NCBI RefSeq assembly: GCF_040215725.1
Contig: NZ_CP157967.1
Span: forward strand, 2,542,001-2,606,000
Length of the DNA stretch: 64,000 nucleotides
Direction of reading: 5' to 3'
Source: Rhizobium sp. ZPR4
GTDB lineage: Bacteria; Pseudomonadota; Alphaproteobacteria; Rhizobiales; Rhizobiaceae
Within the stretch, counting starts at the first letter, position 1, and each line of letters opens with the position of its first letter. Both the position numbers and the translations under genes were made by a program. The notes below the pieces were generated by a model. It was not told the DNA's origin, ran no database searches, and saw only the letters and a list, made by a program, of their open reading frames with translations. Below are positions 9,524-55,104 of the stretch, in pieces.

Positions 9524-10153
9524 ATGCCCGCCATGCGCGTTTTTGCTTTGACATATTTTGCCCTGCCGATTCTGCTTGCTCTGACTGCCTCTGCACCCCA
9601 TGCGGCGCTGGCTGATGAACCGAACCCTGTGGAAAAGCAGAATCCCGGCGATTCCTCCGGCACCCTGTCGCCCAAGCAGCAGCTCGACAATCTGTTCACA
9701 GCGCTGAAGCGGCAACGCGATCCCGATCAGGCAAGCTTGATTGCGGACCAGATCAATGCCGAGCTCGGCGATTCCGGCAGCGCTACCATCAATCTCCTGA
9801 TGCAATGGGCCGACAAGGCCATTCAGGACAAGCGCAATGGCGCTGCCATGGATTATCTGGATCAGGTGATCTCGCTGAAGCCCGACTATGTCGAAGGTTG
9901 GAACCGGCGCGCCACACTCAATTTTGCGATCGGCGACTATCGCAAGTCGATGGAAGACATCAATCAGGTCCTGCGCATCGAGCCGCGCCATTTCGGCGCG
10001 CTGGCCGGTTTGGCGGCGATCCTGAGCGAAGGCGGCAACGACGCACAGGCTCTCAGGGTCTGGGACCGCTTTCTGGAAGTCTACCCGGCGAATCGATCCG
10101 CCCAGGAAGAAGCGAATAAGCTTTCGGAAAAACTTGCCGGCAGCCGCACCTGA
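9524..10153 (+). CDS. Exported TPR protein
   Basis: 209 aa. A signal peptide (about 1-30: RVFALTYFALPILLALTASA, then APHAALADE) is followed by a tetratricopeptide domain (about 95-200: AMDYLDQVISLKPDYVEGWN, RATLNFAIGDYRKSMEDINQ and GLAAILSEGGNDAQALRVWD). Such rhizobial proteins are predicted periplasmic scaffolds; no enzymatic motif is seen. ATGs at 9524 and 9533 are both possible starts. Partner unknown. Confidence 0.8.
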   Translation: MPAMRVFALTYFALPILLALTASAPHAALADEPNPVEKQNPGDSSGTLSPKQQLDNLFTALKRQRDPDQASLIADQINAELGDSGSATINLLMQWADKAIQDKRNGAAMDYLDQVISLKPDYVEGWNRRATLNFAIGDYRKSMEDINQVLRIEPRHFGALAGLAAILSEGGNDAQALRVWDRFLEVYPANRSAQEEANKLSEKLAGSRT

Positions 10154-51391: not shown

Positions 51392-52582
51392 ATGATGAAA
51401 CACTCTGCCCGCGCGACCATGGTGACCTTGAAGGTGGTTCTGACAGCGTTCCTCTCCGCCGTCATCGCCTTTGGTTGCCTGCCGAACATCGCCGAGGCGC
51501 AGGAGCGGCCGCGGCGAAACCTGCTCGACATGCTGTTCGGCACCCGCGAGCCCGACTACCCGGACCAGCCGGCCGAGCAACCACCGCCGCGGCGCAAGGT
51601 GCAGCCGAAAAAGCGGCCGACCCCGCCGCCACGCCAGCAGGTCGCGCAGCCGGAAACGCCGCCACCGGCGGAAAAGCTTCCCGACGCCAAGACCATCCTC
51701 GTCGTCGGCGACTTTCTGGCGAGCGGCTTGGCCACCGGACTGGAGGATGCCTTCTCCACCTCCCCCGGCGTGGTCGTCCAGTCACGCGGCAACGTCGCCT
51801 CCGGTCTCGTGCGGCAGGATTATTACAACTGGCCGCAGCAATTGCCCGGGATGATCGACCAGCTGAAACCGGCCATGGTCGTTGTCATGATCGGCGCCAA
51901 TGATCGCCAGCAGATGATCGGCGACGGGCTGAACGAGAAATACGGTACCGACCCCTGGTTCCTTGCCTATGAAGAGCGTGTGCAGCAATTCGGCAAACTT
52001 GTGACGAGCCGCCATATCCCACTGCTCTGGGTCGGCCTGCCCTCCTTCGGCTCGGACCAGCTGACCGCCAGCGCGGTCAAGCTCAATCAGATCTATCAAA
52101 GCCAGGTGACCAGCGTCGGCGGCGAATTCATCGACATCTGGGACGGATTTACCGACCAGAACGGCGAATTCATCGTCACCGGTTCGGATATCAACGGCCA
52201 GCAGGTCCGGTTAAGGACGGCGGACGGCGTCAACCTGACGGCTGCCGGCAAGCGCAAGGTCGCCTTCTATCTCGAGAAATCCGCACGCCGGATCTTGGGC
52301 GATCAGGCAAGCCCCGACATCACGCGCCTGGACACGGGCAATCCGCTGCCGGCGCAACAGGCCAATCTTCCCGGCGCGGAACCGGAGAAGATCACCCGCA
52401 CGCAGCCGATGAGCCTCTCGGATCCCGATCTCGACGGCGGCTCTCAGCTTCTGGGCAGCAGCCCTGCGCCAGCCGTAGCGACCTCATCACCACGCGATCT
52501 TCTGGTCGAGAAGGGTCTGATGGACCCGGCGCCGGTCGGCCGCGTCGACGACTACAGATTGCCGGGATCGGTCGCACGCTAG
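51392..52582 (+). CDS. DUF459 SGNH/GDSL-hydrolase-like protein
   Basis: 396 aa from the ATG at 51392 with GGAAGAGAAG upstream. A signal segment (VVLTAFLSAVIAFGCLPNIA) is followed by a Pro/Arg-rich linker and the SGNH-like domain. In that domain ILVVGDFLASGLATGL carries an Asp where the GDSL Ser would be expected, then VVMIGANDRQ (the N block) and DGVNLTAAGKRKV. The altered first block (GDFLA) may mean reduced or lost hydrolase activity. DUF459 relatives are linked to O-acetylation of surface polysaccharide in some bacteria; here the role is unknown. Confidence 0.82.
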   Translation: MMKHSARATMVTLKVVLTAFLSAVIAFGCLPNIAEAQERPRRNLLDMLFGTREPDYPDQPAEQPPPRRKVQPKKRPTPPPRQQVAQPETPPPAEKLPDAKTILVVGDFLASGLATGLEDAFSTSPGVVVQSRGNVASGLVRQDYYNWPQQLPGMIDQLKPAMVVVMIGANDRQQMIGDGLNEKYGTDPWFLAYEERVQQFGKLVTSRHIPLLWVGLPSFGSDQLTASAVKLNQIYQSQVTSVGGEFIDIWDGFTDQNGEFIVTGSDINGQQVRLRTADGVNLTAAGKRKVAFYLEKSARRILGDQASPDITRLDTGNPLPAQQANLPGAEPEKITRTQPMSLSDPDLDGGSQLLGSSPAPAVATSSPRDLLVEKGLMDPAPVGRVDDYRLPGSVAR

Positions 52583-52820
52583 GCGGCACGGATGCGGTTT
52601 GACAAGGCCCCGCCCCGCCAATAAAAGAACCGCATGAGCACCAAAAGCGCAGATCAATTCGATCGTTACCGCACCTGCCCGCAGGCTGCGATTGTGCGCG
52701 CTTTCTCCGGCCGAGGTCTCCGCGTCCAGTCGTGACAGCCGGAGGCATTGATGCGTCCGGCGGCTGCTGGACGTAAAGCCCTCACCTCAGAACATCAACG
52801 TTGCCCATGGAGAATGGCAC

Positions 52821-53570
52821 GTGCTCAATATCTATAACGTCAATTCGCTCGTTCATTGGGAAGAGCGGGACATCCGGCTACGCGACGACTTCATCCGCTT
52901 CTTTTCCGACGAAGTCGCAAACTTCCTGCGATCGGCAAATCCCGCCTGGGATATGCGTAGGGTCGAGGCCCCGACCCTGGTGCCGCGAAACCTCGTCTCG
53001 GACGCCTATTCCAACACGGACATATGGGTACAGGAGCGAATGTCGGACACCGAGGCCGAACTCGCGCTGCGCCCCGAAACGACACCGTCTACCTATGTCT
53101 ACATGCAGCATCTTCTCGGAAATCATTCGAAAACAAGGTTGCCCTTATGCGTCTGGCAGGCCGGGAAATCCTATCGCCGCGAACAGGATCAACCGAGCAA
53201 GCATGTGCGGCTCAAGGAATTCTGGCAGCTCGAATTCCAATGCGCTTTCACCGCAGACAGCGGTAACGACTACCATGCCGCCTCGCTGGAACCGGTTCGC
53301 CGGATGATCGCCTCGGTCATCCATCTGCCAACGCGGATCGTGCCGTCCGATCGCGTTCCGGCCTATTCTGAGATCACCATGGATATCGAGGTCGACAACG
53401 GCGACAAATGGATGGAGGTCTGCTCGATTTCAAAACGCACGGACTTCCCTCAGCGCTACCGCAGCCAGCCGAAGAAAGGGCCTGCGATAGACCACGAGGT
53501 TGCAGTGCTGGAAATCGCCATCGGCCTCGACCGCTGCATCTACAACTGGAACGTCGCCGCAAGCCGATAA
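52821..53570 (+). CDS. Stand-alone class II aminoacyl-tRNA-synthetase-like core (GlyRS type)
   Basis: 249 aa from a GTG at 52821 with GGAG nine bases upstream. Motif 1 region: RRVEAPTLVPRN (46-57). LRPETTPSTYVYM (83-95) resembles the LRPETAQG segment of GlyRS. Motif 2: QAGKSYRREQDQPSKHVRLK (113-132) then EFWQLEF. MEVCSISKRTDF (198-209) resembles the GlyRS EIxGIAxRTD segment. Motif 3: IAIGLDRCIYN with Arg238. ATP-binding Arg of motifs 2 and 3 are kept, so amino-acid activation is plausible. There is no anticodon-binding or editing domain. Rhizobia normally use the unrelated two-subunit GlyRS, so this is not the housekeeping enzyme. Target unknown. It is monocistronic. Confidence 0.75.
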   Translation: MLNIYNVNSLVHWEERDIRLRDDFIRFFSDEVANFLRSANPAWDMRRVEAPTLVPRNLVSDAYSNTDIWVQERMSDTEAELALRPETTPSTYVYMQHLLGNHSKTRLPLCVWQAGKSYRREQDQPSKHVRLKEFWQLEFQCAFTADSGNDYHAASLEPVRRMIASVIHLPTRIVPSDRVPAYSEITMDIEVDNGDKWMEVCSISKRTDFPQRYRSQPKKGPAIDHEVAVLEIAIGLDRCIYNWNVAASR

Positions 53571-53591
53571 CGACACAAGCCGATAACGACA
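53560..53591. repeat. Perfect 16-bp tandem repeat spanning a stop codon
   Basis: CAAGCCGATAACGACA occurs twice head to tail (53560-53575, 53576-53591). The first copy contains the last codons and TAA stop of the aaRS-like gene. Confidence 0.85.
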
Positions 53592-53620
53592 AAGGCCGGG
53601 TTCATTACGAACCCGACCTT
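53592..53620 (-). terminator. Hairpin after gltD
   Basis: AAGGCCGGGTTC and GAACCCGACCTT (12 bases, one mismatch) with loop ATTAC, 30 bases after the gltD stop. Only a short T-run on the minus strand (TTT). Confidence 0.6.
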
Positions 53621-53649
53621 CGATCATTGCAGGAAAATAGCGGTAAAGC

Positions 53650-55104
53650 TCAGTTCGGCAGAACCGTCGAACCCATCAGAGCCTCATCGATGGCGCGGGC
53701 GGCCTGGCGGCCCTCGCGGATCGCCCAGACCACCAGCGACTGGCCGCGGCGAATGTCGCCGGCGGTCCAGAGCTTGTCGACCGAGGTCTTGTAGTCCTTG
53801 TCGTTGGCAACGACGTTGGTCGAGCCGCGGCGGTCGGTATTCACAGTCAGCTTGCCGTCGAGTTCCTTGAGCACGCTGTCGGTGAACGGGCCGCGGAAGC
53901 CGATGGCGATGAAGGCGAGATCGGCGCGGATGACGAATTCCGTGCCGGCAATCGGCTTGCGGCGCTCATCCACTTCGCAGCACTTCACGCCGGTCAACAC
54001 GCCGTCTTCGCCGATGAATTCAAGTGTCGCAACCTGGAATTCGCGGACGGCACCTTCGGCCTGCGAGGAAGAGGTGCGCATCTTCGTCGCCCAGAACGGC
54101 CATACGGCGAGCTTGTCTTCCTTTTCCGGCGGCTGCGGACGAATGTCGAGCTGCGTCACCTTCACCGCACCCTGGCGGAATGCCGTGCCGACGCAGTCGG
54201 ACGCCGTATCGCCACCGCCGACGACGACGATGTGCTTGCCACCGGCAAGGATCGGATCGGCAGGCCAGCCGACGCTGTCGATGCTTTCGCGGCCGACGCG
54301 GCGATTCTGCTGCACGAGATAAGGCATGGCATCATGGACGCCTGCGAGCGTCGTGCCGGGAATGCCGGCTTCGCGCGGGGTTTCCGAGCCGCCGCAATAG
54401 AGCACGGCATCATAGTCTGCCAGAAGCTGCTCCATCTTCACGTCAACGCCGACATTGACGCCGCAATGGAAGGTGACGCCCTCGCCCTTCATCTGCTCGA
54501 CGCGGCGGTCGATGAAGTTCTTCTCCATCTTAAAGTCCGGAATGCCGTAGCGCAGCAGGCCGCCGGCCTTGCTTTCGCGCTCGTAGAGATGAACGTCGTG
54601 ACCTGCGCGGCCGAGCTGTTGAGCCGCTGCCATGCCGGCAGGACCGGAGCCAATGATCGCGACTTTCTTGCCCGTATGCACGGTTGCCGGCTGCGGCCGG
54701 ATGAAGCCGAGCTCATACGCCTTGTCGGCGATCGCCTGCTCCACGGTCTTGATGGCGACCGGTGCATCTTCCAGGTTCAGCGTGCAGGCTTCCTCGCAAG
54801 GGGCGGGGCAAACACGGCCGGTGAATTCCGGGAAGTTGTTGGTCGAATGCAGGTTGTGGATCGCCTGTTCCCAGTTGTTGTTGTAAACGAGGTCGTTCCA
54901 ATCGGGGATCTGATTGTGCACCGGGCAGCCGGTCGGGCCGTGGCAATAGGGAATGCCACAGTCCATGCAGCGGGCTGCCTGTTTCTGCACTTCCGGGTCC
55001 GACATGGGGATCGTGAATTCACGGAAATGCCGGATGCGATCCGACGCCGGCTGATACTTCGCCACCTGCCGATCGATCTCCAAGAAGCCTGTTACCTTGC
55101 CCAT
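53650..55104 (-). CDS. gltD: Glutamate synthase (NADPH) small subunit
   Basis: 484 aa. N-terminal Cys clusters (ARCMDCGIPYCHGPTGCPVH, then CPAPCEEACTL) bind iron-sulfur centres. FAD fold VAIIGSGPAGMAAAQQLGRA and NADPH fold VVVGGGDTASDCVGTA follow. It passes electrons from NADPH to GltB. It lies 177 bases after gltB on the same strand; that gap has GCGATCGC motifs and a small hairpin followed by TCTTTT, so partial termination between the two genes is possible. Confidence 0.96.
   Translation of the reverse strand: MGKVTGFLEIDRQVAKYQPASDRIRHFREFTIPMSDPEVQKQAARCMDCGIPYCHGPTGCPVHNQIPDWNDLVYNNNWEQAIHNLHSTNNFPEFTGRVCPAPCEEACTLNLEDAPVAIKTVEQAIADKAYELGFIRPQPATVHTGKKVAIIGSGPAGMAAAQQLGRAGHDVHLYERESKAGGLLRYGIPDFKMEKNFIDRRVEQMKGEGVTFHCGVNVGVDVKMEQLLADYDAVLYCGGSETPREAGIPGTTLAGVHDAMPYLVQQNRRVGRESIDSVGWPADPILAGGKHIVVVGGGDTASDCVGTAFRQGAVKVTQLDIRPQPPEKEDKLAVWPFWATKMRTSSSQAEGAVREFQVATLEFIGEDGVLTGVKCCEVDERRKPIAGTEFVIRADLAFIAIGFRGPFTDSVLKELDGKLTVNTDRRGSTNVVANDKDYKTSVDKLWTAGDIRRGQSLVVWAIREGRQAARAIDEALMGSTVLPN

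Follow-up and report, generated by a model that had tools for sequence, protein, structure and literature searches.

We describe a gene for a free-standing core resembling glycyl-tRNA synthetase (GlyRS), together with an attenuator-like leader that precedes it, in Rhizobium sp. ZPR4 (contig NZ_CP157967.1, positions 2,542,001–2,606,000; this whole stretch of 64,000 nucleotides is the window referred to below). The gene lies at window positions 52821..53570 on the forward strand. Our tentative proposal is that it encodes a phage-derived core which activates glycine, is controlled by the attenuator, and acts by way of the acceptor end to glycylate tRNA(Gly) or a similar RNA. The wider picture, in which a phage-carried GlyRS core blind to the anticodon was acquired at least twice and, under an Arg-Gly attenuator, is produced on failure of glycine decoding (as when a toxin or phage attacks tRNA or GlyRS), is possible but doubtful.

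That a free-standing GlyRS-like core is encoded here, as an initial annotation had claimed from the sequence, is confirmed. The gene, a single copy in its own genome, is an intact open reading frame (ORF) with a GTG start and a product of 249 amino acids. In the profile search against PF00587 and the GlyRS families that the annotation had suggested, the protein passed the PF00587 cut-off (E 2.9e-11, 44.2 bits against 29.3), and its top NCBIfam match was the GlyRS model PRK04173, at 58.8 bits compared with a curated cut-off of 312; all 68 aligned family members matched PRK04173 at E ≤ 0.01. A class II fold is predicted with confidence, mycobacterial and Thermus GlyRS being the nearest structures, and by motifs and fold the core is closest to the dimeric (alpha2, class IIa) GlyRS. 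It differs from that enzyme in lacking both a full-length score and the C-terminal anticodon-binding domain, since its 249 residues stop directly past motif 3, as the annotation had also noted. The motif strings quoted there are present (LRPET at residues 83–87, QAGKSYRRE at 113–121, ISKRTD at 203–208 and GLDR at 235–238), but LRPET is not motif 1: a motif 1-like stretch, RRVEAPTLVPR, lies upstream of it at about residues 46–56, so that the motifs span roughly 46–238 rather than 83–238. Similarly, the likeness to GlyRS stands, but the description as eukaryote/archaeon-type is too narrow, as some bacteria, too, have the dimeric type according to the available sections of a review (PMC7373986). 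We further saw a weak similarity to PylRS. At E ≤ 1e-3 there were 1393 homologues, of which the best 120 were examined; those with names, among the matches listed, are labelled ‘aminoacyl--tRNA ligase-related protein’, ‘glycyl-tRNA synthetase’ or hypothetical. No match was returned by PADLOC for two family members or by PHROG for six, and no Rfam family exceeded its gathering score at window positions 51500–54500. The genome also contains glyQ (G000:C1:435344-436216), as do seven more carriers (eight of eight tested), and the core is thus not the housekeeping GlyRS. The annotation had staked its reading on the class II fold, the arginines of motifs 2 and 3 and a genome with a separate GlyRS; the fold is confident, the arginines are kept in 66 members and glyQ is present.

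The active site points to glycine. Across 66 aligned members the invariant residues include R119 and E121 of motif 2, E138, S204, R206, D208, E231, G235, D237 and R238, with E86 and R130 nearly invariant. In the profile alignment E86 falls within LRPET, E138 closes motif 2 and E231 precedes motif 3, and we take these three to correspond to the acidic residues of the glycine pocket in dimeric GlyRS. By alignment, therefore, the core has an acidic glycine pocket whose residues are conserved in the family. As described in the accessible part of a review, glycine is recognised by three acidic residues and a single serine shuts out larger amino acids (PMC7373986); the position of this serine is Ala233 in the core, and it is likewise Ala in the mycobacterial GlyRS 8t5n. 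Judged from these residues, glycine is the likeliest substrate, and the core probably activates it as glycyl-AMP.

Relatives of the core occur in jumbo phages. A tblastn search matched 20 phage records: 19 match 80% or more of the query and the last is a 4-kb fragment. They include jumbo phages infecting Sinorhizobium, Xanthomonas, Brevundimonas and Caulobacter, as well as two uncultured phages of ~635 kb; a scan of viral contigs (IMG/VR) yielded 77 loci on contigs of up to 561 kb. In a tree of 77 rows, the bacterial copies form two groups among the phage copies. One comprises 25 alphaproteobacterial rows (support 97/77) and is joined by phages L089 and L094 (100/99), and in the other the single Paraburkholderia copy, L084, groups with phages L095, L096 and XbC2 (93/94). 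Two changes of label between phage and bacterium are required by branches with good support. Transfer from phage to bacterium, twice, is the favoured interpretation of this topology, although it is unproven because the tree has a midpoint root and L084 a long branch; the family is found in jumbo phages and was taken up by bacteria, probably on two or more occasions. In Sinorhizobium phage Phosso (L003, 5070-10744) the core gene follows an RNA ligase, an R2K ATP-grasp protein, a CysRS and a tRNA with a CUA anticodon. Similar ORFs occur in L090, L091 and L092, the RNA ligase being noted in Phosso, and this neighbourhood is possibly a functional set.

About 200 bases upstream of the bacterial gene are conserved and accompany it at differing sites. 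The initial annotation was right that the gene has no protein-coding operon partner, its neighbours in the window being a lytic transglycosylase (SLT_2), a DUF459 protein, gltD and gltB, but it missed this leader. The leader ORF, at 52634..52735 (forward strand, as are all leader features given here), has 33 codons and a stop and encodes MSTKSADQFDRYRTCPQAAIVRAFSGRGLRVQS*. Its frame and C-terminal end are kept across genera and its N-terminal part is unrelated in other genera; the ends read GGRGLRV(S/F)G* in Phenylobacterium and GRRG(I/M)GVF(G/R)* in Devosia and Mesorhizobium soli. The putative control codons, CGA GGT (Arg-Gly), lie at 52712..52717. The upstream edge of the leader carries a possible −35 element, TTGACA (52599..52604), TTGAC being present in all 17 bacterial upstream regions aligned, and GGAGA at 52809..52813 probably serves the ligase gene as its ribosome-binding site, a GGAGA-type sequence being present here in the aligned upstream regions. 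Among loci that keep the 5′ end of the gene, 77 of 78 have CGAGGT within 400 bases upstream, and the lone exception (L023, R. tropici SARCC-755) has TGAGGT, a change of CGA to TGA that puts a stop in the leader. Both codons are also present in 47 of 47 rows of an alignment (A3), but by construction, as we chose these rows from 74 leaders having CGAGGT and a downstream GACGT motif.

Among 18 species, nonsynonymous divergence of the leader (dN 0.110) is about equal to synonymous divergence (dS 0.102), and both are well under the dS of the enzyme (0.45–1.41 in the 17 pairs printed), which argues that the leader is constrained as a nucleotide sequence with an open frame and not for its peptide product. 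All 18 leaders keep 33 codons, a length that the selection of rows required. Given dN close to dS and amino acids that vary between lineages, we rejected the leader peptide as a substrate of the enzyme.

The leader appears specific to this gene. A model built from A3 (R1; its E-values are rough, and stricter filters were applied) matched 60 of 120 Rhizobium genomes, with 61 hits at E ≤ 5.5e-11. All but one of these hits lie just upstream of the core gene, ~33–41 bases away except for two at 125–130, and include a broken copy in G280; the remaining match precedes a deleted copy in G284. In 385 genomes of the class, only the genome of ZPR4 itself matched strongly; 33 others matched weakly (best E 0.001), and the weak matches that were read (G662, G233 and G227) lacked a leader ORF. 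Every strong match in the two sets thus adjoins the core gene or a remnant of it, the informative part being the absence of other strong matches, because many of the species had supplied rows to R1.

Three segments of the leader suggest alternative folding. Region 2 (52723..52730), inside the last leader codons, is the 5′ arm of a covarying helix whose 3′ arm is region 4 (52766..52773; ..GGACG of GGACGTAAAG); region 3 (52754..52761; CGTCCGGC) is an alternative partner of region 4, with which it forms a local hairpin in some folds. The 2:4 helix is paired in 97.1% of alignment cells, 52 cells being changed on both sides, and its covariation is 0.436. Shuffled alignments gave 0.153, with none of 500 reaching the observed value, and slid controls no more than 0.186. 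The fold of the window leader has a z of −2.56. Mutual exclusion of 2:4 and 3:4 in the alphaproteobacteria is plausible on these predicted structures. In Paraburkholderia the leader of L084, MDAMRHWVNQRGFGGT*, carries the codons CGA GGT TTT GGC GGC, which reach into region 1. A hairpin over its stop codon (−10.7 kcal/mol) has a 3′ arm that can alternatively pair (−14.4) with the 5′ arm of a terminator at 9903–9923 (−14.7, eight T). Read from its sequence, this leader shows the textbook form of a trp-type attenuator, and, with L084 in the separate bacterial group, it reflects either convergence or a shared leader that was lost in phages.

Trp-type transcription attenuation is a general scheme for the control of amino acid and synthetase genes. 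The leader described here resembles it in having a leader ORF, candidate control codons near the end of that ORF, a conserved helix involving the last leader codons and candidate alternative hairpins, which are clear in L084, with a T8 terminator as well in Paraburkholderia. It differs in that the control codons are Arg-Gly, the alphaproteobacterial form has no T-run, and the gene controlled is a ligase lacking a named role. By analogy, freely translating ribosomes would let the downstream helices form, with little expression of the gene. If a ribosome is held up at CGA GGT or at the neighbouring glycine codons, it would cover region 2, refold the leader and raise expression of the ligase. Attenuation of this kind is probable, and the enzyme would then be made when decoding of glycine (or arginine) codons fails. 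The weakest step is the last, in which the core may, at somewhat less than even likelihood, glycylate tRNA(Gly) or a related RNA through its acceptor end, leaving the anticodon unread. We propose a supply of glycyl-tRNA because it is the simplest reason for a glycine enzyme to appear upon stalling at glycine codons. The host and phage glycine tRNAs examined share an acceptor start GCGG and U73, features that would in principle be enough for recognition by the acceptor alone, and glycine minihelices can be charged. In bacteria such an enzyme would be a stress or anti-toxin supplement to GlyQS, and in phages an aid to translation.

Several observations weigh against this proposal. Minimum-energy folds of full leaders gave 2:4 in L010, L067 and L065 but 3:4 in L077 and L034. 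When region 2 was masked by removing the stretch which a ribosome stalled at GGT would cover, 3:4 formed in only two of the five (L010 and L077, not L067, L034 or L065). The plain count of 2:4 pairs changed on both sides (four) is not above that in shuffles, 464 of 500 of which were as high. At the window leader, scanning found no intrinsic terminator on the forward strand and a consensus promoter scan reported no promoter. A leader ORF like that of L084 arises in 221 of 20 000 mononucleotide shuffles of its upstream region, and the resemblance alone is therefore worth about 1%. Of the two control codons, the arginine codon CGA varies no more than the glycine codon and is the less frequently used. 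No leader was seen in phages: among 81 loci, those with fewer than 150 upstream bases being skipped, CGAGGT occurred upstream in one, outside a small ORF. Half of the genus Rhizobium lives without the core gene. Finally, phage tRNA genes lie no closer to the core gene than random placement within tRNA-bearing loci would put them: 11 of 31 such loci have one within 200 bp, against 7.5 expected.

The core might instead glycylate something other than a tRNA 3′ end, either a tRNA base, as GluQ-RS does with glutamate, or a translation protein in the manner of EpmA, which acts on elongation factor P; induction by stalled decoding would be unchanged. This account is on the unlikely side, although an RNA or protein target of another kind is almost as probable as glycylation of tRNA. 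The core has no anticodon-binding domain, and no partner gene is conserved alongside the bacterial copies; the target would then probably be a general cell component. Synthetase cores that have lost their tRNA-binding domain often act in this way, according to the available portion of a synthetase review (PMC9437257). Both GluQ-RS (YadB) and EpmA (PoxA) are, like our core, free-standing synthetase cores that work outside normal charging (PMC9437257 and PMC7373986, sections available), but they derive from GluRS and LysRS and use other amino acids, whereas the core described here derives from GlyRS and has a leader. The glycine and arginine codons of that leader fit tRNA charging more directly, and we saw no matching co-localised modification gene. 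The initial annotation took modification of proteins or carrier proteins, rather than tRNA, as the default, a preference not sustained here as the leader points to decoding of glycine or arginine codons.

A second alternative is that the leader senses arginine, through CGA, or a ribosome-acting drug, through arrest by the nascent chain, and governs resistance or an arginine-related response. CGA accounts for just three of 183 arginine codons in four window genes (four of 23 in the ligase gene) and is as invariant as GGT, which makes up 39 of 275 glycine codons; moreover, the conserved part of the leader directly precedes the stop codon. Yet the end residues vary by lineage (GRGLR, GRRGIG, RGFGG) around constant CGA GGT codons, dN of the leader about equals dS, as is described above, and the pocket is that of GlyRS. 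We consider this explanation unlikely.

Less probable again is that the core, like enzymes of Bradyrhizobium and Agrobacterium, is an amino acid:[carrier protein] ligase, transferring glycine to a phosphopantetheine carrier. Those enzymes (Bradyrhizobium Bll0957 and relatives) are also stand-alone class II cores without a tRNA-binding domain, and one is glycine-specific by the title of its structure, 4h2s. However, 15 GlyRS rows score higher, and no ligase of this family is among the PDB matches of the profile at E ≤ 0.01. No carrier-protein gene adjoins the core gene in the window (a genome-wide search for carriers was not made), no neighbour is conserved across bacterial groups in a rough comparison of ORFs, and the leader would be left unexplained. 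We saw nothing that speaks for a role with carrier proteins.

It is very improbable that the core is a phage-type synthetase with an odd tRNA of its own, such as one with a CUA anticodon, as in the PylRS pair. Such tRNAs do lie <500 bp from the core gene in four phage loci (L003, L090, L091, L092), and the similarity to PylRS has been mentioned. But the two CUA tRNAs examined have G73, as opposed to the U73 of the glycine tRNAs shown, and jumbo phages encode CUA suppressor tRNAs for stop-codon recoding, as far as the accessible text of one study goes (PMC13037316). A search of the Rhizobium genome with Rfam (45 tRNA matches, 150 of 164 candidates scored, anticodons read) and by pattern found no CUA tRNA, and most bacterial copies have no tRNA nearby (ARAGORN, 165 loci). 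Nothing in these searches fits a dedicated tRNA partner for the bacterial gene. A pair of adjacent tRNA-like genes outside the window (L205, G000:C1:1035442-1035586), one having an abnormal anticodon loop, not assignable by ARAGORN, and the other a divergent Arg(CCT), was rejected as a partner: strong matches occur in seven of 120 congeners, six with the core gene, compared with 61 of 120 that have the gene. In phages, tRNA genes are plentiful (11–69 matches apiece in the 18 records searched); the fetched flanks of 33 of 81 loci hold 252, of which 248 are on the strand of the core gene. Those nearest to the core are of many kinds and not clearly closer than random, and we rejected adjacency as proof of function. 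Glycine tRNAs make up five of the 17 tRNAs within 150 bp as against 31 of 252 overall, an enrichment that is suggestive only, as the count is inflated by the identical proteins of L116 and L122.

Least likely of all is a catalytically inactive regulatory core like HisZ, a stand-alone class II core of a kind that does exist (PMC9437257, in the part available), for the catalytic arginines of motifs 2 and 3, like the pocket acids, show little or no variation.

A stand-alone core derived from a synthetase and having phage kin, preceded by an attenuator-like leader, appears from these sequence comparisons to be new. Among GlyRS paralogs, the available sections of the synthetase review list a yeast stress isozyme and the carrier-protein ligases but not this family (PMC9437257), and it is undescribed in those of a jumbo-phage overview (PMC7824862). 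We found no description of the family or its leader in the literature searched, PMC4431377 and PMC5852040 included, as far as the texts available extended; most subscription journals lie outside that literature, and this is no proof of absence. The family libraries searched give no role for it. Free-standing synthetase cores have repeatedly proved to perform new chemistry, and this family is common to jumbo phages and to soil and plant bacteria. Its leader offers a clue, written in the sequence, to when the enzyme is wanted by the cell, something orphan enzymes usually lack; if tRNA is indeed charged without the anticodon, the core would be a natural minimal GlyRS.

Within Rhizobium the gene looks old, constrained and repeatedly lost. 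Among 18 orthologues that we picked from the R. tropici group, the median dN/dS is 0.07 (153 pairs). The gene was matched in 61 of the 120 Rhizobium genomes drawn, four of these copies being broken or partial (G280, G221, G286 and G290, the last with one in-frame TAG), and in G284, unmatched in that search, an internal deletion has left the leader and the two gene ends in place. Decay is seen under way in the ligase gene of R. hainanense (L020, 10001-10750), full-length but for an in-frame TAG, and in the leader of L023 with its change of CGA to TGA. Across the order, two of 199 genomes have the gene, one being that of ZPR4, and among 398 Burkholderiaceae genomes the only carrier is that of L084 itself. 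A scan of contigs gave 79 bacterial loci, including partial copies (e.g. L083 and L088), mostly from Rhizobium but also from Shinella, Mesorhizobium, Pleomorphomonas, Devosia, Phenylobacterium and one Paraburkholderia.

The chromosomal site varies among bacterial groups, and the rough ORF comparison found no protein-coding neighbour conserved across them. Two copies at separate places, each with its own leader, occur in Rhizobium sp. SL86 (L063/L064) and Rhizobium sp. BK313 (L065/L066). On a Devosia neptuniae plasmid (L007, 10001-12724) the ligase gene adjoins a HipA-domain gene and a helix-turn-helix gene, a single case that may be due to chance; HipA toxins target a synthetase. Lastly, between the ligase gene and gltD in the window, a strong palindrome (AAAGGCCGGGTTC..GAACCCGACCTT, 53585-53686) is likely a transcription terminator, and the same positions gave a weak match to Rfam ar35, under its gathering score.
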